Part shown: positions 22,732-47,538 of the stretch, one piece after another
Layout of the letters: each line of letters begins with the position of its first letter
Position numbering within the stretch: position 1 is the first letter of the stretch
Assembly: GCF_001043115.1 (NCBI RefSeq)
Contig: NZ_LFME01000014.1
Location: 1 to 64,000, forward strand
Reading direction: 5' to 3'
Origin: Xanthomonas sp. NCPPB 1128
GTDB lineage: Bacteria > Pseudomonadota > Gammaproteobacteria > Xanthomonadales > Xanthomonadaceae
Length of the DNA: 64,000 nucleotides
Position numbers and translations under genes: made by a program
Notes under the pieces: generated by a model
Told to the model about the DNA's origin: nothing
Database searches by the model: none
What the model saw: only the letters and a program-made list of their open reading frames with translations

Positions 22732-24201
22732 TCAGAACGGATACTGCGGCGCGCTGTCCTGGATCGTCACCCACTGCCAGTGCGTGTACTGGCCCCAGTC
22801 GGCCGGGCCGCCCATGCTGGTGCCGTTGCCGGACGCGCCGGTGCCGCCGAACGGGTTGGTGACTTCGTCGGCCACGGTCTGGTCGTTGATATGCAGCAGA
22901 CCGGTGTGCAGGCGCTCGCCCAGCGCCATCGCGCGGCCGACCGAGGCCGACAGGATGCCGGCCGACAGGCCGTATTCGGTCTGGTTGGCCAGCGCCACCG
23001 CCTCGTCGTCGCTGTCGAAGGCGATCACGTTGGCCACCGGGCCGAACACTTCCTCCTCGAATGCCGGCATGCCCGGCTGCACGTTCGACAGCACCGTAGC
23101 CGCGTAGAACAGGCCGTCGTGGGTGCCGCCGGCCTCGATTACCGCGCCCGCCGCCACCGACGCATCGACCACCTCCTTGACGTGCTGCAGCTGGCGCTGG
23201 TCGATGATCGGGCCGAGCGCCACGTGTGCGGTGGCCGGATCGCCGACCGGCAGGTGCCGCGCCTTCTCGGCCAGGCGCCGGGTGAGTTCGGCGGCGATGC
23301 TGCGCTGGACCAGTACGCGGCCGGTGGCCATGCAGATCTGGCCCTGGTGGAAGTACGCGCCGAAGGCGATCGCCGACACCGCCTTGTCCAGGTCGGCATC
23401 CTCCAGCACGATCAGCGAGTTCTTGCCGCCCAGTTCCAGTGCGGTCTTCTTCAGGTGCTTGCCGGCCAGTTCGCCGATGCGGCGGCCGGCGGCAGTGGAA
23501 CCGGTGAACGCGATCATCGGCACGCCCGGCGCTTCGACCAGCGCCTGGCCGGCGTCGGCGCCGCCCGGCAGCACGTGCAGCAGGCCCTTCGGCAGGCCCG
23601 CCTGCTGCAGCACTTCGGCGATGACGAAACCGCCGGCATACGGCGTGCGCGGATCGGGCTTGAGCACCACCGCATTGCCCACCGCCAGCGCCGGCGCCAC
23701 CGAGCGCAGCGACAGCACCAGCGGGAAGTTGAACGGCGAGATCACCCCGACCACGCCCAGCGGCAGGCGCCGCGCCAGGCTCAGCCGGCCGGGCGCGGTC
23801 GGCAGCACCTGGCCCTGCGCCTGCAGCGGCATCGCCGCCGCCTGCTGCAGCAGCACGATCGCCTCGCGCACCTCGTGCTCGCCCTTGGGCAGGATGCCGC
23901 CGGTCTCGCGCGCGATCAGCGCCGCGGCCGCCGCCGCATGCTGCTGCAGCACCTGCGCGGCGCGATGGAACACCGCCGCGCGCTCGCGCGGCGGCGTTGC
24001 CGCCCAGGCGCGTTGCGCGGCGCGCGCCTGCGCCACCGCCGCGGTCACGTCGGCCGCATTGGCCTGGCCGACGCGGTGCAGCGGCATGCCGCTGCCCGGT
24101 TCGATCACCTCGAGGACGCCGCCCTGGGCGGCGACCCACTCGCCGTTGAAGATGCGCTCGCTCCAGGTGGACGCGGCGGCCAGGGGTTCGGTGCTGTGCA
24201 T
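22732..24201 (-). CDS. vdh: aromatic aldehyde dehydrogenase (vanillin/benzaldehyde dehydrogenase type)
   Basis: 489-residue NAD(P)-dependent aldehyde dehydrogenase. Asn158 lies in ISPFNFP, Glu256 in LELGGKN, and the nucleophile Cys290 in QGQICMATGR. The C-terminal NPFGGTGASGNGTSMGG motif is typical of benzaldehyde/vanillin dehydrogenases. It oxidises vanillin and 4-hydroxybenzaldehyde, made by the hydratase/lyase upstream, to vanillate and 4-hydroxybenzoate for VanAB and PobA. It is the last gene of the hydroxycinnamate cluster, 37 bases after the SDR gene. Confidence 0.9.
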   Translation of the reverse strand: MHSTEPLAAASTWSERIFNGEWVAAQGGVLEVIEPGSGMPLHRVGQANAADVTAAVAQARAAQRAWAATPPRERAAVFHRAAQVLQQHAAAAAALIARETGGILPKGEHEVREAIVLLQQAAAMPLQAQGQVLPTAPGRLSLARRLPLGVVGVISPFNFPLVLSLRSVAPALAVGNAVVLKPDPRTPYAGGFVIAEVLQQAGLPKGLLHVLPGGADAGQALVEAPGVPMIAFTGSTAAGRRIGELAGKHLKKTALELGGKNSLIVLEDADLDKAVSAIAFGAYFHQGQICMATGRVLVQRSIAAELTRRLAEKARHLPVGDPATAHVALGPIIDQRQLQHVKEVVDASVAAGAVIEAGGTHDGLFYAATVLSNVQPGMPAFEEEVFGPVANVIAFDSDDEAVALANQTEYGLSAGILSASVGRAMALGERLHTGLLHINDQTVADEVTNPFGGTGASGNGTSMGGPADWGQYTHWQWVTIQDSAPQYPF

Positions 24202-38307: not shown

Positions 38308-38814
38308 ATGCCGCTGGACCACTGGCGACTGTCGCCACGCCACTGGGTACCCAACCACCCGTTCCTGCCGGTGCTGCACTACCGGCACTGCGTGGGCGCC
38401 ATCGACGCCGACGGCTTCGAACGCCGCTTCGCCGCGCACGGCTGGCCGCCGCAATGGCGCGATGGCATCTACGACTACCACCACTACCACTCCACCGCAC
38501 ACGAGGTGCTCGGCGTCGCCGGCGGCAACGCCTGCGTGGTGCTTGGCGGCCCGGGCGGCATCGAGGTCGCACTCGCGGCCGGCGATGCCCTGCTGCTGCC
38601 GGCCGGCACCGGCCATTGCCGGCTGTCCGCCAGCGCCGACTTCATGGTCGTTGGCGCCTACCCCCAGGGCCAGGACTGGGACATCTGCCGCGAGGCGCCC
38701 ACCGCCGCGATGCTGCAACGGATCGCCAAGGTACCGTTTCCGCACAGCGATCCGCTGCTCGGGGCGGAGGGGCCGTTGCTGGAGTATTGGCAGATGCCTA
38801 CCGCCATCGACTGA
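38308..38814 (+). CDS. cupin-fold protein (YjlB-like)
   Basis: 168 residues. A single cupin domain has the metal-site-like motif [19 protein letters not shown] (residues 55-73) and a second beta region [28 protein letters not shown]. The pattern matches the COG4297 family of uncharacterised cupins found widely in Proteobacteria. Function unknown. It is a single gene, convergent with the SagB-type dehydrogenase gene (19-base gap). Confidence 0.8.
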
Positions 38815-38832: not shown

Positions 38833-40020
38833 TCACGCCTGCCGTGAAGCGGACTCGGCCGCCCAGACGTCGCACGCCGGATCGAACTCGGTCGTCGCCG
38901 CGTGCTCGGACCTCCAACCGAAACCGCAGATCGCCATGACGCTCTGGCGCATCGGGTCCAGGTCCAGCGCCTTGCCGAGATCGACGTCATTGATGGCGGA
39001 GGTGACGAACGCCCCCAATCCCAGCTCGGTGGCCGAGAAGTACAGCGCCTGCGAGATGTGGCCGACGTCCAGGGTCAGCGCGCGATAAGCCTTGGCATGC
39101 TGGCGATACTTCCAGAACGTGCGGGTGAATCGCGGTGCGAGCAGCACCAGCACGTGGGCATCGGCGAACCAGTGCTGCCCGGCCAGCGCCAACCGCGCGA
39201 ATGCATCGATGTCCGGCCCTGGACACGGCAACGGCGCCAACGCGTGATCCACCGGATGGTAGTGGTACAAGCCCGGTTCGATCCCCTCCACCCGGCGCAC
39301 CAGCAGGTAGGCTTCGGTCGGGTGCAATCCGCCAGCCGACGGCACGTTCTTCTTCAGGAACACCGTATCGTCCTGGACCCGCAGCGTCGCCCGCGCCATC
39401 AGTGCGCGCTGCACCATCCGCAGGAACAGCGCATGCGGCAGCGCGCGGGCATCGTCGTAGTTGCGGCAGGTGACGCGACGCGCAAGCATGGCGTCGAAGG
39501 CGCCGTCGTCCAACCGCGGCAGCGGAATCCTGGCGAGGCCGGAACCGACCTCCTGCACCTCGGGTGGCGGCGCGCCCAGCTTGCGGCGCAGGTCGGGGGC
39601 AGACACCATGCCGTTGCGCTCCATCGCGGTCACCCCGTCGATGCCCTGCCAACGGCTGGCCCAGTGCGCCACGGCCGCGGCCGGCCACCAATGCGCGGAC
39701 CGCAACGCCTCGTCGCGTTCGCGAAACGCGGCAGAACGCGCGTCGTCGCCGATCAGCAGGCCGCGATCGAGCGCCCGCTCGATCGCGGCGTCCGCATGGC
39801 CGGCCAGGTGCGCGCGCTCGACCCATTCCGTGGGACTGACCTGGCCAAGCAACGGCAGGTCGGCCACGTCCAGTTCGAGCTCACTGTCCAGGTGCGGCGC
39901 CAACGCGACCCACGCACGCTCGCGGCGCAGCCCGGCACCGCCACGGAGCAGGCTGGCCAGGTCGAACGCCACGCGTTCCCGCGCCTCGACGAACAGCACG
40001 GCACAGCGCCTCAGACGCAT
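38833..40020 (-). CDS. SagB-type FMN dehydrogenase, putative peptide-maturation enzyme
   Basis: 395 residues from the ATG at 40020 (GAGGGG upstream). The C-terminal half (about 170-390) is a nitroreductase/SagB-ThcOx domain: RRVTCRNYDD (181-190), PSAGGLHPTEAYLL (227-240), GLYHYHP (250-256), and a late LGLGAFVTSAIND. SagB-type enzymes oxidise azoline rings to azoles in RiPP biosynthesis. The N-terminal half (1-165) has no recognised fold and may bind the peptide. It is divergent from the short NHLP-like peptide gene. I recall a TIGRFAM family of xanthomonad 'putative peptide maturation dehydrogenase' that fits. No YcaO partner is in view. Confidence 0.8.
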   Translation of the reverse strand: MRLRRCAVLFVEARERVAFDLASLLRGGAGLRRERAWVALAPHLDSELELDVADLPLLGQVSPTEWVERAHLAGHADAAIERALDRGLLIGDDARSAAFRERDEALRSAHWWPAAAVAHWASRWQGIDGVTAMERNGMVSAPDLRRKLGAPPPEVQEVGSGLARIPLPRLDDGAFDAMLARRVTCRNYDDARALPHALFLRMVQRALMARATLRVQDDTVFLKKNVPSAGGLHPTEAYLLVRRVEGIEPGLYHYHPVDHALAPLPCPGPDIDAFARLALAGQHWFADAHVLVLLAPRFTRTFWKYRQHAKAYRALTLDVGHISQALYFSATELGLGAFVTSAINDVDLGKALDLDPMRQSVMAICGFGWRSEHAATTEFDPACDVWAAESASRQA

Positions 40021-40193
40021 GGACCCCTCGTTTCCGTGGTGCGGGAGCACTGCATCGATTGGCCACATTGGAGAGATGCCGGGCTGCTAGGATACCGCCG
40101 CGGCCCCGGTCGTTCCTGCGATCGGCCGTGGCAACCGCACCTCCGCCATGCGTGCAGCGCATGTCCACCGCTATCGAAACAGGGGACCACATC

Positions 40194-40517
40194 ATGACCG
40201 ACCAGCCGCAGGGGCATCCGCCCTTCGATCTCGCCACTGCCCAGCAATTGCTCACGCTTCTGTCCACCGACGACGCCTTCCGCGCGCTGTTCGCGCAGGA
40301 TCCGGGTGCGGCGCTGCGCAGCCTCGGCCTCTCCGAGCAACGCGCCGCCGCCGCGCTGGAGGAGCCGACCTGCCTGTGCACCTCTGACCTGGCGACCAAG
40401 GAAGAAATCCAGGAAGCCCTGGAATTGCTGCTGGCCTACCTCACCGCCGAGGGTACGCACACGGTCGTTCACTGTTTCGAAGCGGGTTCCGTCGTCGCCA
40501 GCCTGACTGCCAAATAG
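40194..40517 (+). CDS. NHLP-like RiPP precursor peptide
   Basis: 107 residues from the ATG at 40194 (AGGGGA eight bases upstream). An in-frame ATG at 40161 adds eleven residues but has no ribosome site. Residues 13-48 (LATAQQLLTLLSTDDAFRAL, then FAQDPGAALRSLGL) resemble the nitrile-hydratase-alpha-like leader of NHLP precursors. They are followed by Cys60, Cys62, an acidic helix (69-84) and a Ser/Thr/Cys-containing tail (TVVHCFEAGSVVASLTAK). The position between a SagB-type enzyme and a cyclase protein matches the 'putative modified peptide' set described for xanthomonads (from memory). The core boundary is not evident. Confidence 0.72.
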   Translation: MTDQPQGHPPFDLATAQQLLTLLSTDDAFRALFAQDPGAALRSLGLSEQRAAAALEEPTCLCTSDLATKEEIQEALELLLAYLTAEGTHTVVHCFEAGSVVASLTAK

Positions 40518-43096
40518 GTCGGCAATGCTTGCCCCGCCCAGGCGCGACGGAAGGTCTCCGCCTTCTGCCGCGCCTGGTCGGGCTGGCCCAGGCTGGCCAG
40601 AATCTCCGTGGTACTCAGCACCGCCAGGTTCGCGTCGGCGACATTCATCGATTGCAGCACCAGTCCGCCGGTCGGCTCGATGTACGCCAGGCCGCGGCGC
40701 GCGACCAGCCAGTCGTTTTCGGCCAATGCCTGCTTCTTCTCGCCGGTTGCGAGCAAGGCGTCGCGCAGGCTGACGTGGAGCTGATACGGCTCCCTGCCAT
40801 CGATCTGTTCGCGTAGCAGGGCGACCGCACCCGCGGGCTTTCCGCTGTCGATGAGCTGTTGCGCCCGCAGCAGGGACAACAACTTGGTCATCGGCGGGAA
40901 ACCGGACTGCGCAACCAGCGAGGCGAGCTGCGCCGCATGCACGTCGTACAGCGCTGGGTCGCCGCTGCGCTGCGCCAGGCGGATGGCCGACATCGCCACG
41001 ATGACCAGATCGTCGCGATCGCCGGCGTCGCCGTGGACGGCCTGCTGCAACGCTTCGTCGGCGATCCGCGCCAGCGCTCGCCTGTCCACCGTCCGTGGAT
41101 CGATGACGAACGCGACTGCTTGCTGCGCGATCTGCAAGGGATACCGGATCACCGGCTCTGCCTCCGCCGACGCCGCCACGGCCGCCTGCGCGGCAGCGGC
41201 TGCGTCGCGCAAACGGCCTTGGTCCAGCGGAATGGAGATCTGTTCGAAGTGGTCGGTCAGAGCCGCCCCCGACGCCGCCAGTGACGCCATGATGCTGTCT
41301 GCCGCCGCGTAGTCCTTCATCGCCGCGAACGCGGCAGCATGGCGTCGGGTCGCCGGATAGCCGCCGAGTTCCTCGGCCTGCTTGAAGGCATTGAGCGCGT
41401 CGCCGTACCGGCCCTGCGCCAGGTAGATGCGGCCCTGCAGTTCCACTGCCACGTCGCGCAGCGGATTCTGTGGCACCGCGAACTTCTGCACGCTGTGCGC
41501 GGCCGATGCGTAGTTGCCCTCGGTGAATTCGTCCCAGGCGAACTGCGCCGCGCCGGCGTAGTAGTCCGGATACAGTTCCGACAGCATCTTCCACTTCTGC
41601 TTCGCCTGCCGCCACGGGTGCGGGCCGAGTTCGCTCGCCCATGCATCCAGGTACAGCGCATCACGTTCGGAAAGATGGTCGCGCAAGGCCATGGCCTTGG
41701 CCAGGTACTGCATTGCCGCGCGATTGTTGGCGGTGGAGATCTCGACCCGCATCGATCCCATGTAGGCGAGTGCGAAATCCTTGTCGATCTCGGCCGCCTT
41801 GGCGAAGTACTGATCGGCGGTCTGGAAGTCGCGCCGGGTGAAGTACTTCACCGCGATCGCGTAGGCCTTCAGGGCGTCCAGGCTGCTGGTGGTCACGCTC
41901 GGCAGCGGCGGCGAATTCTTCCTGATGATCTCCTCGCCTTCGCCCAACTGCTCGCGCAGCGATGCGGTCACCGCATCGATCGAGGCCAGCACCGAGCCGG
42001 CCCCGCGGCCGTCGCGGGACTCGGCATAGACAGTCGCCTGCGTCTTTGGATCGACCACCTCCGCGCTCACCCGCACCCGCCCGCCGACCTCCGAGACCGT
42101 GGCGAGCAGCACGGCGCGTGCGCCATCGCGCTGCGCGATCTCCGAGGCGGTGGCGCGATCCAACGGCGTGTGCTCCGGATCGCGACGCATCCGCGTCAGC
42201 GTGTCACGCACCTTCAGATCGCTGAGCACGTTGACGTAGCGCGACTGCTCCAGGCTGATGCGGAAGGCCTGCTGCAGCGAGTCGTCCAGGGCTACGTCGC
42301 CAGTGAGATTGCGCAAATCCCCCACCACCACCCAGTCGCGTTCGGCGAAGGCGATGGCCGGCTGCGGACGGGTGACGAACCAGGCGCCGAGCGCGAACGC
42401 GGCGATCAGCGCCGCTTCCGCCGCCAGCGCCGCCGGCCGGCGCCACAGCGGGATGTCGCGCCAGGCCTTGGGCGTGGGCTTGGGCGCGCGCAGCGGGGTG
42501 TGGCCGATCTCGCCGACTTCGTAGATCTCCAGCGGGGTCGGCACGCCCTTGAAGCGCCAGCGACCGTGCGATTTCCACAGCAGGCGCTCGCCGCGCTCGC
42601 CCAGCTCGCGCGCGGCGCGGTGGGTCAGCGACTCGGCCACCGCCGAGAGCAGGATCTGCCCGGGCCGGGCCAGGGTCATCAGCCGCGCCGCGGTCGGCTT
42701 GGCCAGGCCTTCCACCTCCAGCGGCTTGGCACCCACCTGCACGGCGGCGTCGCTGTTGCGCCAGGTCAGCACCTCGCCCACGTGCAGGCCGGCGCGCACC
42801 TTCAGGTCGAGCTTGCGCTGCGCGCCCAGGTCGTGCAGGCCGCGGCTGTAGTCCAGGGCGAAGCCAAGGCCGTCGATCGGCCGTTCGAACAGCAGCAGCA
42901 GGCCGTCGGAGCGGTCGATCAGGCGCCCGCGCCAACGCTGCTGCAGCTCCAGCACCAGCGAGTCGTGACGCTTGAACAACTCGGCCGCATTGGCGTCGCC
43001 GAGCTTTTCCACCAGCGCCACCGAGTCGCACAGGTCGGTCAGCAGCAGGGTCCGCAGCTGCGGGACCTCGGGCGGCGGTGCGGGGGCGTCGGTCAT
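40469..43096 (-). CDS. class III cyclase-TPR protein, 'peptide modification system cyclase'
   Basis: 875 residues. An N-terminal class III nucleotidyl cyclase domain spans residues 10-190, with metal Asp21 (LLTDLCDS) and Asp64 (DRSDGLLLLF), HVGEV, and Arg138 in AKPTAARLM; the usual Asn four residues before that Arg is Pro134. One membrane span lies at about 222-242 (AALAAEAALIAAFALGAWFV). A periplasm-facing or cytoplasmic FlgO/TolB-like and TPR region fills 245-870. It resembles the guanylate cyclase XC_0250 of X. campestris, whose neighbour binds cGMP. The 3' end overlaps the peptide gene by 49 bases, convergently. It lies 27 bases after the GGDEF gene. Confidence 0.82.
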   Translation of the reverse strand: MTDAPAPPPEVPQLRTLLLTDLCDSVALVEKLGDANAAELFKRHDSLVLELQQRWRGRLIDRSDGLLLLFERPIDGLGFALDYSRGLHDLGAQRKLDLKVRAGLHVGEVLTWRNSDAAVQVGAKPLEVEGLAKPTAARLMTLARPGQILLSAVAESLTHRAARELGERGERLLWKSHGRWRFKGVPTPLEIYEVGEIGHTPLRAPKPTPKAWRDIPLWRRPAALAAEAALIAAFALGAWFVTRPQPAIAFAERDWVVVGDLRNLTGDVALDDSLQQAFRISLEQSRYVNVLSDLKVRDTLTRMRRDPEHTPLDRATASEIAQRDGARAVLLATVSEVGGRVRVSAEVVDPKTQATVYAESRDGRGAGSVLASIDAVTASLREQLGEGEEIIRKNSPPLPSVTTSSLDALKAYAIAVKYFTRRDFQTADQYFAKAAEIDKDFALAYMGSMRVEISTANNRAAMQYLAKAMALRDHLSERDALYLDAWASELGPHPWRQAKQKWKMLSELYPDYYAGAAQFAWDEFTEGNYASAAHSVQKFAVPQNPLRDVAVELQGRIYLAQGRYGDALNAFKQAEELGGYPATRRHAAAFAAMKDYAAADSIMASLAASGAALTDHFEQISIPLDQGRLRDAAAAAQAAVAASAEAEPVIRYPLQIAQQAVAFVIDPRTVDRRALARIADEALQQAVHGDAGDRDDLVIVAMSAIRLAQRSGDPALYDVHAAQLASLVAQSGFPPMTKLLSLLRAQQLIDSGKPAGAVALLREQIDGREPYQLHVSLRDALLATGEKKQALAENDWLVARRGLAYIEPTGGLVLQSMNVADANLAVLSTTEILASLGQPDQARQKAETFRRAWAGQALPTYLAVRLATTEPASKQ

Positions 43097-43123: not shown

Positions 43124-44170
43124 TCAGCAGGGCGCGGAGGCGAGGTCGTGCCAGTACAACCGGTTGCCGCCCTGGCGCTTGGCCTCGTACAGCGCCGCAT
43201 CGGCGTTGGCGTACCAGTCGTTCCAGTCCGAATGCGGATCGACCCGGCTGATGCCGATGCTGACCGGGCAGATGTGCGGCGCCGGGTGCGGCACGCCCAG
43301 CAGGTTCTGCACGGTGGCGAGCACGAACTCGCCGATCCGGCGCAGGTCCTCGACGTTGCCGGCGGCCACCAGCAGGCAGAACTCGTCACCGCCCAGGCGA
43401 CAGGCGATGTCGTCGGGCCCGGCCACCGAGCGCAGGATGTTGGCGACGTTCTGCAGCACGCGGTCGCCGACCAGATGGCCGTGGGCGTCGTTGATGTGCT
43501 TGAAGCGATCGCAGTCGATCAGCAGCAGGCCTGGGCCGGGTGAGCGGCCGTCGCGGCGGCACTCCTGCAGGCGCAGGATCAGTCCGCGGCGGTTGTGCAG
43601 GCCGGTGAGTTCGTCGGTGCGCACCAGCTCTTCGGTCTGGGTGAGCTGGTGGGTGGTGGCGTAGAGGTTGTCCAGCGCCGCTTCCAGGTCGCGGTTGCGC
43701 CGGCGCAGCTGGCGGATCAGGGTCTGCTCGTTCATCACCACGCGCATGATGGTGCGGCGCAGGAAGTAGGCGACCACGCCCGGGTCGCGCTCGACCAGGC
43801 GCTGGAAGTCGTCGTGGTCCAGTTCCACCAGCGCGCCGTCGCTGGCGGCGAGCGCGTCGGCGCTGCGCATGTGGTTGCCGATCAGCAGGCCCAGCTCGCC
43901 GAAGAACTCGCCGTGGCCCAGGTGCTTCACCACCAGGTCCTCGCCGAAATCCAGATCGATCACGCCGCTGGTGATCACGAACATGGCGCTGCCGCCATCG
44001 CCGCGGCGGAACAGCACGTCGCCGGCGCGCACCGTACGGGCGCGGCCGAATTCGGAGAACAGGCGCAGTTCCGCAGCGGTCAGCACCGCCAGCTCGTTCG
44101 GCTTCGGAGCGACCGCAGCAGCGTTGGAAATTGTGCCGCGTGCGGTGGATGCGGCGCTGTCGCAGCTCAT
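43124..44170 (-). CDS. cNMP-binding GGDEF protein (XC_0249-like diguanylate cyclase)
   Basis: 348 residues. An N-terminal cyclic-nucleotide-binding domain (about 30-145) has the phosphate cassette FGELGLLIGNHMRSADALA. A coiled helix (150-182) links it to a GGDEF domain with an intact RLGGDEF (258-264). The usual upstream RxxD inhibitory site reads GPDD, so feedback inhibition is probably lost. The architecture equals XC_0249, which binds cGMP and makes c-di-GMP in X. campestris (published work, from memory). It is the upstream gene of a pair with the cyclase-TPR gene. GAGGGG precedes the ATG at 44170. Confidence 0.9.
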   Translation of the reverse strand: MSCDSAASTARGTISNAAAVAPKPNELAVLTAAELRLFSEFGRARTVRAGDVLFRRGDGGSAMFVITSGVIDLDFGEDLVVKHLGHGEFFGELGLLIGNHMRSADALAASDGALVELDHDDFQRLVERDPGVVAYFLRRTIMRVVMNEQTLIRQLRRRNRDLEAALDNLYATTHQLTQTEELVRTDELTGLHNRRGLILRLQECRRDGRSPGPGLLLIDCDRFKHINDAHGHLVGDRVLQNVANILRSVAGPDDIACRLGGDEFCLLVAAGNVEDLRRIGEFVLATVQNLLGVPHPAPHICPVSIGISRVDPHSDWNDWYANADAALYEAKRQGGNRLYWHDLASAPC

Positions 44171-44407: not shown

Positions 44408-45703
<1,296 letters not shown>

Positions 45704-45842: not shown

Positions 45843-47486
45843 TCAATCAATCAACTGATAGGCCGGCAAGGTCAGGAAATCGGCCAGTTCTTCGTCGCGG
45901 GTCAGCTTGTCGAGCAAGGCGATGGCCTCGTCCACCCGCGCCCCGCCCGGCAGCAGCGCGCGCTCGCCCAGCCGCGCCGGCAACTGCCGCAGGCAGGCGT
46001 CGAACAGGGCGAAGTCGATGGCGGTGCCGTCGTCCAGGTGCAGGCCGCCCACGTGCAGCCACTGCCACAACTGGCTGCGGCTGATCTCGGCGGTGGCGGC
46101 GTCCTCCATCAGGTGGTGGATCGGCACGCAGCCATTACCGTCCAGCCACGCCGCCAGGTAGCGCACGCACACTTCGATATTGCCCTCGAAGCCGGCGCGG
46201 GTGATGGTGCCGGTGGACGGGGCGATCAGCGTGTCGCGGTCGGCCTGCACGTCCTCGCGGCGCACCGCATGCTGGTTCGGCGAGCGCATGTGCTCGTCGA
46301 ACACCGCACGGGCGATCGGGATCAGCGCCGGGTGCGCCACCCAGGTGCCGTCGTGGCCGGCGGTGACTTCGCGCAGCTTGTCCGCGCGCACCCGCGCCAT
46401 CGCCTGCTCGTTGGCCGCCTCGTCGTGGCCGATCGGGATCTGCGCGGCCATGCCGCCCATCGCATGCGCGCCGCGGCGGTGGCAGGTGCGGATCAGCAGT
46501 TCCGAGTACGCCTTCAGGAACGGCTGGGTCATGGTCACCTGGCCGCGCTCGGGCAGCACCCGGTCCGGATGCCGGCGGAAGGTCTTCAGGTAGGAAAAGA
46601 TGTAGTCCCAGCGACCGCAGTTCAGGCCGACGATGCGGCCGCGCAGCGCGTGCAGGATCTCGTCCATCTCGAACACCGCCGGCAGCGTCTCGATCAGCAC
46701 GGTGACCTTGATCTGGCCCTGCGGCAGGCCCAGCATGTCCTCGATGTGGGCCAGCGCGGTCTCCCACAGCGCCGCTTCCTCCATCGACTGCAGCTTGGGC
46801 AGGTACAGATAGGGGCCGCGGTCCTTGGCCTGCAGCGCGCGGCCGTTGTGGAAGGCGAACAGCGCCGCGTCGAACAGGCCGCCGGCCAGCGGCTGGCCGT
46901 CGACCAGCACGTGCTTCTCGTCCAGATGCCAGCCGCGCGGACGCACGATCAGCACCGCCTGTTCCTCGTAGGGACGCAGCGCGTAGCGCTTGCCCGGGCT
47001 GCCGTCGCGCGCGGCCGGCGCGGTGAAGGTCAGCGTCCCGGCCACCGCCTCGGCCAGCGCACGCTGGCCGGCGACCAGGTTGCGCCAGGTCGGCGCGGTC
47101 GAGTCCTCGAAGTCGGCCATGTACACCTTGGCGCCGGAGTTCAGCGCGTTGATGACCATCTTCGGATCGGTCGGGCCGGTGATCTCGACGCGGCGGTCCT
47201 GCAGGGCCTCGGGCAGCGGCGCCACCTGCCAGTCGCCCTCGCGGATCGCGCCGGTGTCGGTGCGGAAGTCCGGCAGGCCGCCGGCGTCGAAGAACGCCTG
47301 GCGCTCGCGCCGCGCCGCCAGCCGCGCCTGGCGCTCCGGCTCGATCGCCCGGTGCAGCGACACCAGCAGAGCCAGCAGCGGCGGCGGCAGCAGGGCGTCC
47401 TGGCCGGCCAGCGAGGCGGTCAGGGCGATGCCCGGCGTGGAGCGCGTGGACGGGTCGGGAGCAGCAGCGAAAGCGGGGGCGGACAT
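45843..47486 (-). CDS. aceB: malate synthase A
   Basis: 547 residues. It condenses glyoxylate and acetyl-CoA to malate. Hallmarks are VYMADFEDSTAPTW, LPKLQSMEEAALW, IGLNCGRWDYIFSYLKT-type sequence (VGLNCGRWDYIFSYLKTFR) and GMAAQIPIGHDEAAN. The start at ATG 47486 (MSAPAFAAAPD) has GAGGAA upstream. It is divergent from a LysR gene over a 108-base spacer with a clear palindrome, so LysR control is likely. The gene lies 139 bases before aceA. Confidence 0.96.
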   Translation of the reverse strand: MSAPAFAAAPDPSTRSTPGIALTASLAGQDALLPPPLLALLVSLHRAIEPERQARLAARRERQAFFDAGGLPDFRTDTGAIREGDWQVAPLPEALQDRRVEITGPTDPKMVINALNSGAKVYMADFEDSTAPTWRNLVAGQRALAEAVAGTLTFTAPAARDGSPGKRYALRPYEEQAVLIVRPRGWHLDEKHVLVDGQPLAGGLFDAALFAFHNGRALQAKDRGPYLYLPKLQSMEEAALWETALAHIEDMLGLPQGQIKVTVLIETLPAVFEMDEILHALRGRIVGLNCGRWDYIFSYLKTFRRHPDRVLPERGQVTMTQPFLKAYSELLIRTCHRRGAHAMGGMAAQIPIGHDEAANEQAMARVRADKLREVTAGHDGTWVAHPALIPIARAVFDEHMRSPNQHAVRREDVQADRDTLIAPSTGTITRAGFEGNIEVCVRYLAAWLDGNGCVPIHHLMEDAATAEISRSQLWQWLHVGGLHLDDGTAIDFALFDACLRQLPARLGERALLPGGARVDEAIALLDKLTRDEELADFLTLPAYQLID

Positions 47487-47538
47487 GTGGGGATTCCTCG
47501 ATGTTTCCGGGGCTCCACCGTGCTGCCAGCACATGTAT

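Follow-up and report, generated by a model that had tools for sequence, protein, structure and literature searches.

We analyzed a 64,000-nt stretch of DNA from Xanthomonas sp. NCPPB 1128 (NZ_LFME01000014.1, positions 1 to 64,000 of the forward strand; assembly GCF_001043115.1), hereafter the window, and we lean toward the view that one of its loci encodes a peptide signal together with its receptor. A precursor peptide modified by a SagB-type dehydrogenase would be the ligand of the TPR domain of a membrane guanylate cyclase, which would make it a pherotype-like signal wired to cyclic GMP (cGMP) and cyclic di-GMP (c-di-GMP). What is new here is a specificity-cassette pattern: related bacteria seem to swap the peptide, its enzyme and the sensor half of the cyclase together as matching parts, and this suggests the peptide as the missing input of the cGMP pathway. 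The features of the locus and the evidence for each are the following (aa, amino acids).

38833..40068, minus strand: SagB-type flavin mononucleotide (FMN) dehydrogenase (SagB_rel_DH_2), 411 aa, presumed peptide modifier; TIGR04511 at 556.8 bits (cut-off 240)
39103..39114, minus strand: W-K-Y-R (aa 319-322 of the dehydrogenase), holding the Lys-Tyr pair of azoline dehydrogenases; invariant in 42 aligned sequences
40194..40517, plus strand: NHLP-related precursor peptide, 107 aa; TIGR04509 at 104.2 bits (cut-off 34)
40194..40364, plus strand: leader, aa 1-57, nitrile-hydratase-like helices with the pattern LLxxLxxDDxFRxxFxxDPxxAL; alignment of 55 peptides
40389..40448, plus strand: segment with LA(S/T/P)KEE that links leader to core, aa 66-85, assigned as a helix by eye; alignments
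40449..40514, plus strand: predicted core with its tail, EGTHTVVHCFEAGSVVASLTAK, of the 'TVVF' type, aa 86-107; variation among core types and their co-variation with the TPR half
40469..43096, minus strand: membrane guanylate cyclase-TPR receptor of the XC_0250 family, 875 aa; TIGR04510 at 1231 bits (cut-off 400) and six XC_0250 residues
42497..43096, minus strand: slow-evolving class III nucleotidyl cyclase domain, aa 1-200; alignment and divergence comparisons
42374..42430, minus strand: single transmembrane (TM)-like segment, aa 223-241, with a positive N side; the divergence of close relatives begins there or shortly beyond it in four of eight pairs
41897..42349, minus strand: presumably periplasmic region resembling FlgO/LpoB, aa 250-400; Pfam matches that are weak and under cut-off
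40472..41896, minus strand: TPR half, aa 401-875, predicted to sense the peptide, fast-evolving; matches to TPR chains of designed and structurally solved proteins
43124..44170, minus strand: cyclic nucleoside monophosphate (cNMP)-binding GGDEF diguanylate cyclase of the XC_0249 family, the cGMP effector; PF00027, PF00990 and PDB 5h5o (E 2.9e-47)
44408..45703, minus strand: conserved and presumably aceA-like flank outside the cassette, used as a yardstick; synteny and identity in close pairs
45843..47534, minus strand: a second such flank and yardstick, presumably aceB-like; synteny and identity in close pairs

A first-pass annotation, made from the letters of the window, had described the first three genes as a triad, and its coordinates and arrangement stand: the peptide is divergent from the dehydrogenase, with start codons 125 bp apart and opposite directions, and lies tail to tail with the cyclase gene, with an overlap of 49 bp. 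The families that it had named, TIGR04509/04510/04511, proved correct in hidden Markov model searches, all three proteins scoring far over the curated cut-offs, and the triad order is conserved across the loci compared. The triad is nevertheless an incomplete picture, in that the adjoining cNMP-GGDEF gene also belongs to the unit, and so is the view of a locus resembling those of ribosomally synthesized and post-translationally modified peptides (RiPPs) with no known product, in that the cyclase belongs to a biochemically characterized signaling pathway. Residues D41, D71, L73, A150, L157 and A161 of XC_0250 correspond to D34, D64, L66, A143, L150 and A154 of the window protein at a constant offset of 7; the cGMP pocket of XC_0249 (F73, E90, H98, N145 and E146) is found at F75, E92, H100, N147 and E148 of the effector (offset 2), which also has the GGDEF motif. 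On sequence grounds, the cyclase and the next gene are thus members of the XC_0250/XC_0249 pathway from cGMP to c-di-GMP, the cyclase activity itself being carried over from the orthologue. We take PDB 5h5o to be the XC_0249 domain; the entry listing says only 'Diguanylate cyclase'.

In the available part of its account, XC_0250 of X. campestris joins a TPR domain to a class III cyclase domain that converts GTP to cGMP, with no activity seen on ATP; XC_0249, a protein of the cNMP-GGDEF type, makes more c-di-GMP in response to cGMP; and the pathway controls biofilm and plant virulence (PMC3770947). That part names neither an input signal nor a neighboring peptide gene and leaves the TPR domain uncharacterized; the available part of a 2019 review likewise calls the TPR domain of the cyclase uncharacterized and names no input (PMC8042644), and XC_0249 goes unmentioned in the available part of PMC8846402.

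The apparent exchange of the sensor half shows in DNA identity, taken in 250-bp steps, between the members of four pairs of relatives (L142/L114, L032/L038, L031/L068 and L102/L067), picked since their distances hinted at a swap. Identity is mostly 85-98% over aceB, aceA, the effector and the cyclase domain, apart from gene borders, where it dips to 73-84%. It is 34-66% over the TPR half, the peptide and the dehydrogenase and regains 85-96% within about 250-400 bp beyond the latter, with more intergenic dips. L142 and L114 are both recorded as X. arboricola and are separate species in GTDB. At the protein level, examined in eight pairs, the drop starts at aa 226-250 in L044/L114, L031/L068 and L067/L102, beside the TM-like segment of the window protein; it starts further along in L033/L040 (about 251), L032/L038 (about 301) and L110/L123 (about 451). 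The border is not universal, since the cyclase domain itself differs in L050/L149 and L034/L096. The clearest single case of a core/TPR change is L123/L110, both recorded as Stenotrophomonas maltophilia, which are near-identical in leader, dehydrogenase and receptor to about aa 450 and changed in the C-terminal half of the peptide and in the TPR domain. As in a pherotype system, the peptide, its modifier and the sensor half are hypervariable, the output is conserved and the borders are sharp, their position varying between pairs.

Co-variation between peptide and receptor was quantified over 77 loci (2926 pairs), which remained from 105 one-peptide loci after 86 with single-copy yardsticks were retained and identical peptides removed; the core borders were chosen by us, and pairwise p values were not used because the rows are related. 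Distances of the core correlate with those of the TPR half (r 0.686; partial 0.643 given AceA+AceB) and less with those of the cyclase domain (0.304, partial 0.124) or the FlgO-like region (0.230, partial 0.196). The dehydrogenase is intermediate, with 0.605 for its N part (partial 0.543) and 0.553 for its C part (partial 0.493). When the TPR half is held constant, the correlation between the core and the dehydrogenase C part falls to 0.079, whereas that between the core and the TPR half is 0.492 with the C part held constant; over 38 disjoint nearest-relative pairs, the corresponding values are -0.03 and 0.71. In the same 38 pairs, the Spearman correlation with the core is 0.90 for the TPR half, 0.80 and 0.76 for the dehydrogenase C and N parts, 0.72 for the FlgO-like region, 0.54 for the cyclase domain and 0.48 for AceAB. 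Among the 73 pairs in which the dehydrogenase C part differs by less than 0.16, the core-TPR value is 0.83, against 0.37 for the leader, 0.24 for AceAB and 0.22 for the cyclase domain. Followed along the receptor, the core's partial correlation stays at 0.07-0.11 as far as aa 225, is 0.12-0.19 over aa 251-375, climbs to 0.33 at aa 351-425 and 0.55 at aa 401-475, peaks at 0.67-0.69 at aa 451-575 and is 0.48-0.57 further on, so that it is not highest beside the peptide gene.

Trees built with FastTree point the same way. For the same 45 labeled rows, with core-type patterns of our own definition, the TPR tree needs 6 changes of core type and the dehydrogenase tree 7, compared with 10 for the FlgO-like region, 11 for the cyclase domain and 13 for AceAB (shuffled means 16.0-16.5); on all 72 typed rows, the numbers are 10, 11, 18, 21 and 26. 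Changes of genus rank differently, with 14 for the TPR half, 12 each for the dehydrogenase and the FlgO-like region, 7 for the cyclase domain and 8 for AceAB (shuffled means 24.8-25.0), and a quick mixture-model tree built on 49 rows of the cyclase domain requires 9 changes of genus, against a minimum of 6. The cyclase domain and the housekeeping flank therefore follow genus, and the TPR half and the dehydrogenase track peptide type more closely.

The peptide is a real, constrained gene, given a GGGGA stretch upstream of its ATG and a dN (nonsynonymous divergence) far under dS (synonymous divergence) relative to its nearest relative, L032 (0.021 and 0.207; 0.025 and 0.174 with the overlap removed). 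Its NHLP-type leader, claimed by the first-pass annotation, is borne out by the TIGR04509 match and the 55-peptide alignment; the peptide has neither fallen outside the NHLP-type families nor lost synteny with its two partners, which together would have spoken against the annotation. Three Cys are indeed present (60, 62 and 94 on the translation), whereas the description of the tail as Ser/Thr-rich is weak (5 Ser/Thr in the last 22 residues) and the number of Cys is not a conserved feature. Of 141 distinct peptides (a count that includes L120, a fragment at a contig end), 12 have no Cys; the same holds for 38 of the 66 different core regions, and 3 of these 66 cores lack Cys, Ser and Thr altogether; no fixed Cys, Ser or Thr position was apparent by eye in the cores of the co-variation alignment. 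The core types are instead TVVF/TVIF (that of the window), xNPH, xPIxLN, VPxL, CPPEL and short VF ends. An encoded, leader-bearing precursor beside a modifying enzyme is one mark of a RiPP locus, and this one has both, as judged from sequence only.

Besides TIGR04511, the dehydrogenase matches TIGR03605 (115.8 bits) and the nitroreductase family PF00881, and its C-terminal part matches the CyaGox, BmdC and McbC chains in the PDB; about 170-190 N-terminal residues had no match in a profile search of the whole protein against the PDB. A leader-binding (RRE) domain is one conceivable identity for this N-terminal part. The Lys-Tyr pair is important in azoline dehydrogenases, and it is invariant in the alignment, which comprises 42 of the 44 sequences found, the window included (the near-copies L038 and L052 were left out).

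Occurrence was surveyed in collections holding one genome per GTDB species. In an order sample of 200 genomes, peptide, dehydrogenase and cyclase scored over cut-off in 43 genomes each, and comparison of the three lists by hand showed these to be the same 43; matches below cut-off, in 10 further genomes for the dehydrogenase and 147 for the cyclase or TPR part, have scores that suggest unrelated members of the nitroreductase and cyclase/TPR groups. The effector (E up to 1e-30) is present in 45 of the 200, namely 42 of the 43 triad genomes (on a separate contig in G014, G024 and G073) and 3 of the 157 others (G106, G111 and G030). Two of these three, G106 and G111, keep the aceB-aceA-effector order and lack all three triad genes; their effectors (loci L154 and L155) show 61-64% identity. 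The remaining triad genome, G091, has no effector match, and its receptor keeps only 2 of the 6 cyclase residues tested, with the other 4 altered; its five peptides, dehydrogenase and TM-TPR part are kept. These five peptide genes lie in tandem (L069, 8723-10677) and share the same C-terminal end. In a class sample of 274 genomes, searched at E up to 1e-60 for the cyclase and up to 1e-50 for the dehydrogenase, only 3 genomes gave matches, all of the window's own family.

When named genomes were scanned with the aligned dehydrogenases and the best 80 of 295 relatives were kept, a peptide of this kind was found in the flank of the dehydrogenase at all 80 loci. Among these 80, cyclase and effector are both present at 69, the cyclase without the effector at 3, and the cyclase is lacking at 8, two of which (L081 and L151) are near a contig border. 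The other six are actinomycetes, five Streptomyces (L075, L076, L077, L078 and L083) and one Kribbella (L080), with dehydrogenases 57-61% identical to that of the window; Kribbella carries five tandem peptides with differing cores. In the family of L075, only the seed itself has the dehydrogenase (1 of 249 genomes, E up to 1e-50), so that the trait is sporadic there. Variations on the triad were also seen. L046 (11240-13360) and L141 (10891-13011) encode, in addition to a full cyclase, a second TM and TPR protein without a cyclase domain, overlapping or directly after the dehydrogenase, and two dehydrogenases with two or three peptides occur in L138, L130, L143, L095, L059 and L144, whole triads being duplicated in L059 and L144.

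Our working model is as follows. The dehydrogenase would bind the NHLP-led precursor and oxidize its short C-terminal core, dehydrogenation being likelier than formation of a YcaO-type azole, and the product would then be cleaved and leave the cell through an unlinked exporter. It would bind the TPR half, presumed periplasmic, as the co-variation, the TPR fold and the single TM-like segment suggest; TPR folds bind peptides. Binding would alter cGMP synthesis by the cytoplasmic class III domain, for which conversion of GTP to cGMP was shown in XC_0250, and cGMP would bind the adjoining cNMP-GGDEF protein, raise c-di-GMP, as shown for XC_0249, and alter biofilm and virulence genes. Swapping of peptide and sensor half as a block, with the output half staying in place, would give rise to many private dialects within and across genera.

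Several observations weigh against a peptide-TPR match. Since the TPR half, the peptide and SagB are neighbors, replacement of the block would suffice to produce co-variation without binding. The leader, which would not be the expected ligand, correlates with the TPR half above the core (0.761, partial 0.729) and the middle helix about equally to it (0.699, partial 0.676), although the leader is a longer and less noisy stretch than the core. In 14 disjoint pairs with a near-constant dehydrogenase, the values for the TPR half (0.92), the leader (0.87) and AceAB (0.86) are all high, so that this set fails to separate the three. In X. campestris, according to the available part of PMC3770947, the XC_0250 cyclase domain alone restored biofilm, and for a low-cGMP screen of about 5000 mutants only XC_0250 insertions are named. 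X. campestris strain 8004 itself presumably carries both the peptide gene and the dehydrogenase gene. A receptor is missing from the six actinomycetes, none of whose genomes (0 of 6) has a cyclase-TPR match at E up to 0.001. Finally, no linked exporter, protease or second modifying enzyme and no extra gene common to the loci was seen by eye, in a scan that used the window genes only, and gene starts for the six actinomycete loci, with no family search. The two X. campestris observations fit an inhibitory or conditional ligand better than an obligate activator, and the ligand may be inhibitory.

The main rival follows from the first of these points: the genes would diversify together without binding, either as a recombination island from the TM-like segment to the end of the dehydrogenase or under diversifying selection for some other reason, phage or host recognition for example. 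The changed stretch is contiguous in the pairs examined, and the end of the TPR half adjoins the peptide core, even overlapping it in the window, as linked inheritance would have it; in its favor, too, leader and helix track the TPR half no less than the core does. It would not predict, however, that the core correlation peaks inside the TPR half rather than at its end nearest the peptide, or that the equally near SagB C part loses its correlation with the core once the TPR half is held constant while the TPR half keeps its own. Nor would it predict that the leader tracks the FlgO-like region (0.566, partial 0.557) where the core hardly does, or that the island starts inside the receptor gene, between sensor and output. 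We regard linkage as the most serious of the alternatives and yet a doubtful one. It is improbable, in our estimate, that the product is a modified antimicrobial peptide with the co-diversifying TPR-cyclase as its immunity or self-sensing protein, in a bacteriocin-like form of kin discrimination. Bacteriocin clusters usually consist of a precursor and a tailoring enzyme, diversification would suit a toxin-immunity arms race, and tandem precursors occur in G091 and Kribbella; yet the output is that of a guanylate cyclase whose cGMP effector is conserved, no exporter was seen alongside in the limited scan, and the six actinomycetes have the peptide without a TPR protein. More generally, we consider a signal likelier than a peptide secondary metabolite, since the receptor half varies together with the peptide.

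We give equally little credence to an internal redox or metabolic sensor, in which peptide and dehydrogenase would act on the cyclase inside the cell and the peptide would never be exported. The lack of a linked exporter in the same scan, the aceBA-like neighbors and an FMN enzyme that could report redox state would suit such a sensor; by the positive-side rule, however, the one TM-like segment with its positive N side puts the TPR half outside, and dialect-like diversity would be unexpected. Least probable is a thiazole/oxazole-modified microcin or linear azole-containing peptide (TOMM/LAP) made with a distant cyclodehydratase. The invariant Lys-Tyr pair in the SagB domain, the similarity to McbC and CyaGox and the presence of YcaO in 5 of the 6 actinomycete genomes with a peptide-dehydrogenase pair speak for it. 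Against it, YcaO, whose absence from the locus the first-pass annotation had remarked on, has no match anywhere in the window's own genome (71 contigs) and none in Kribbella, to which two genomes the argument from absence is limited because the other five actinomycetes have YcaO; more than that, the majority of the cores are Cys-free and a few have no Cys, Ser or Thr. With YcaO absent from its own genome and no fixed Cys, Ser or Thr in the cores, azole formation on the window peptide is unlikely. Returning to the peptide as TPR ligand, a much wider version can be imagined, an order-wide RiPP-pheromone language with dozens of private dialects, matched TPR cyclase receptors feeding cGMP and then c-di-GMP, and receptor-less Streptomyces and Kribbella that may broadcast decoys at xanthomonads; we consider this wider version speculative and rather unlikely.

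Around the locus, a cupin-like protein of 168 aa (38308-38814; Pfam matches below cut-off) adjoins the dehydrogenase. The cupin and SulP genes on that side were considered as cassette members and rejected: cupin hits are limited to a few Xanthomonas loci, and the DNA identity of L032/L038 already recovers within the cupin gene. Elsewhere in the window's own genome, there is one C39-peptidase match (L159, C1, about 22737-23114) with an adjoining open reading frame that is HlyD-like by eye. This C39 protein is a candidate exporter of leader-bearing peptides, unlinked, and with no evidence tying it to the triad.

The enzymes, the effector and the phenotypes of the Xanthomonas cGMP pathway have been known since 2013, and the locus supplies a concrete candidate ligand for it. 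Natural swaps such as L142/L114 and L110/L123 would provide ready-made cognate and non-cognate pairs. If the peptide is the ligand, the locus would represent a dialect-bearing, modified-peptide pheromone system in Gram-negative bacteria, would tie RiPP chemistry to cyclic-nucleotide signaling and would give a role to an orphan triad of NCBI families.

Among the closest known systems is the XC_0250/XC_0249 pathway itself, with the same tested cyclase residues and the same cGMP pocket in the adjoining cNMP-GGDEF protein; a peptide input is absent from the available part of its account. The NCBI 'modified peptide system' (TIGR04509/04510/04511), which all three window proteins match, is known by its family names only. 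We found no title or abstract linking the peptide or the dehydrogenase with the cGMP pathway, and no literature under the three accessions, in a search whose coverage excluded most subscription papers and all preprints; the term 'peptide maturation dehydrogenase', where it occurs in the available text, is used for streptolysin SagB, in another context. The dehydrogenase shares its nitroreductase-fold domain with McbC and CyaGox (PDB 6gos and 5lq4) and differs from these systems by its extra N-terminal stretch and by the lack of YcaO. A SagB-like nitroreductase beside a precursor, outside streptolysin-type clusters, is also described for graspetide loci, which in addition encode ATP-grasp ligases (PMC8939145, available part); none was noted at the window locus.

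In its architecture, the locus resembles peptide quorum-sensing systems of Gram-positive bacteria. In the Agr system of staphylococci, the peptide, a thiolactone, is hypervariable together with its processing enzyme and the sensor part of a histidine kinase; the triad shares this variable set and differs by its Gram-negative setting and by having no histidine kinase. ComQXPA of Bacillus likewise combines a variable peptide, modifying enzyme and receptor sensor part with a conserved cytoplasmic part of the receptor (PMC4008528, available part). There, the modifying enzyme, ComQ, transfers an isoprenyl group and the receptor, ComP, is a histidine kinase, whereas here the corresponding places would be taken by an FMN dehydrogenase and a TPR guanylate cyclase, in mostly Gram-negative hosts.

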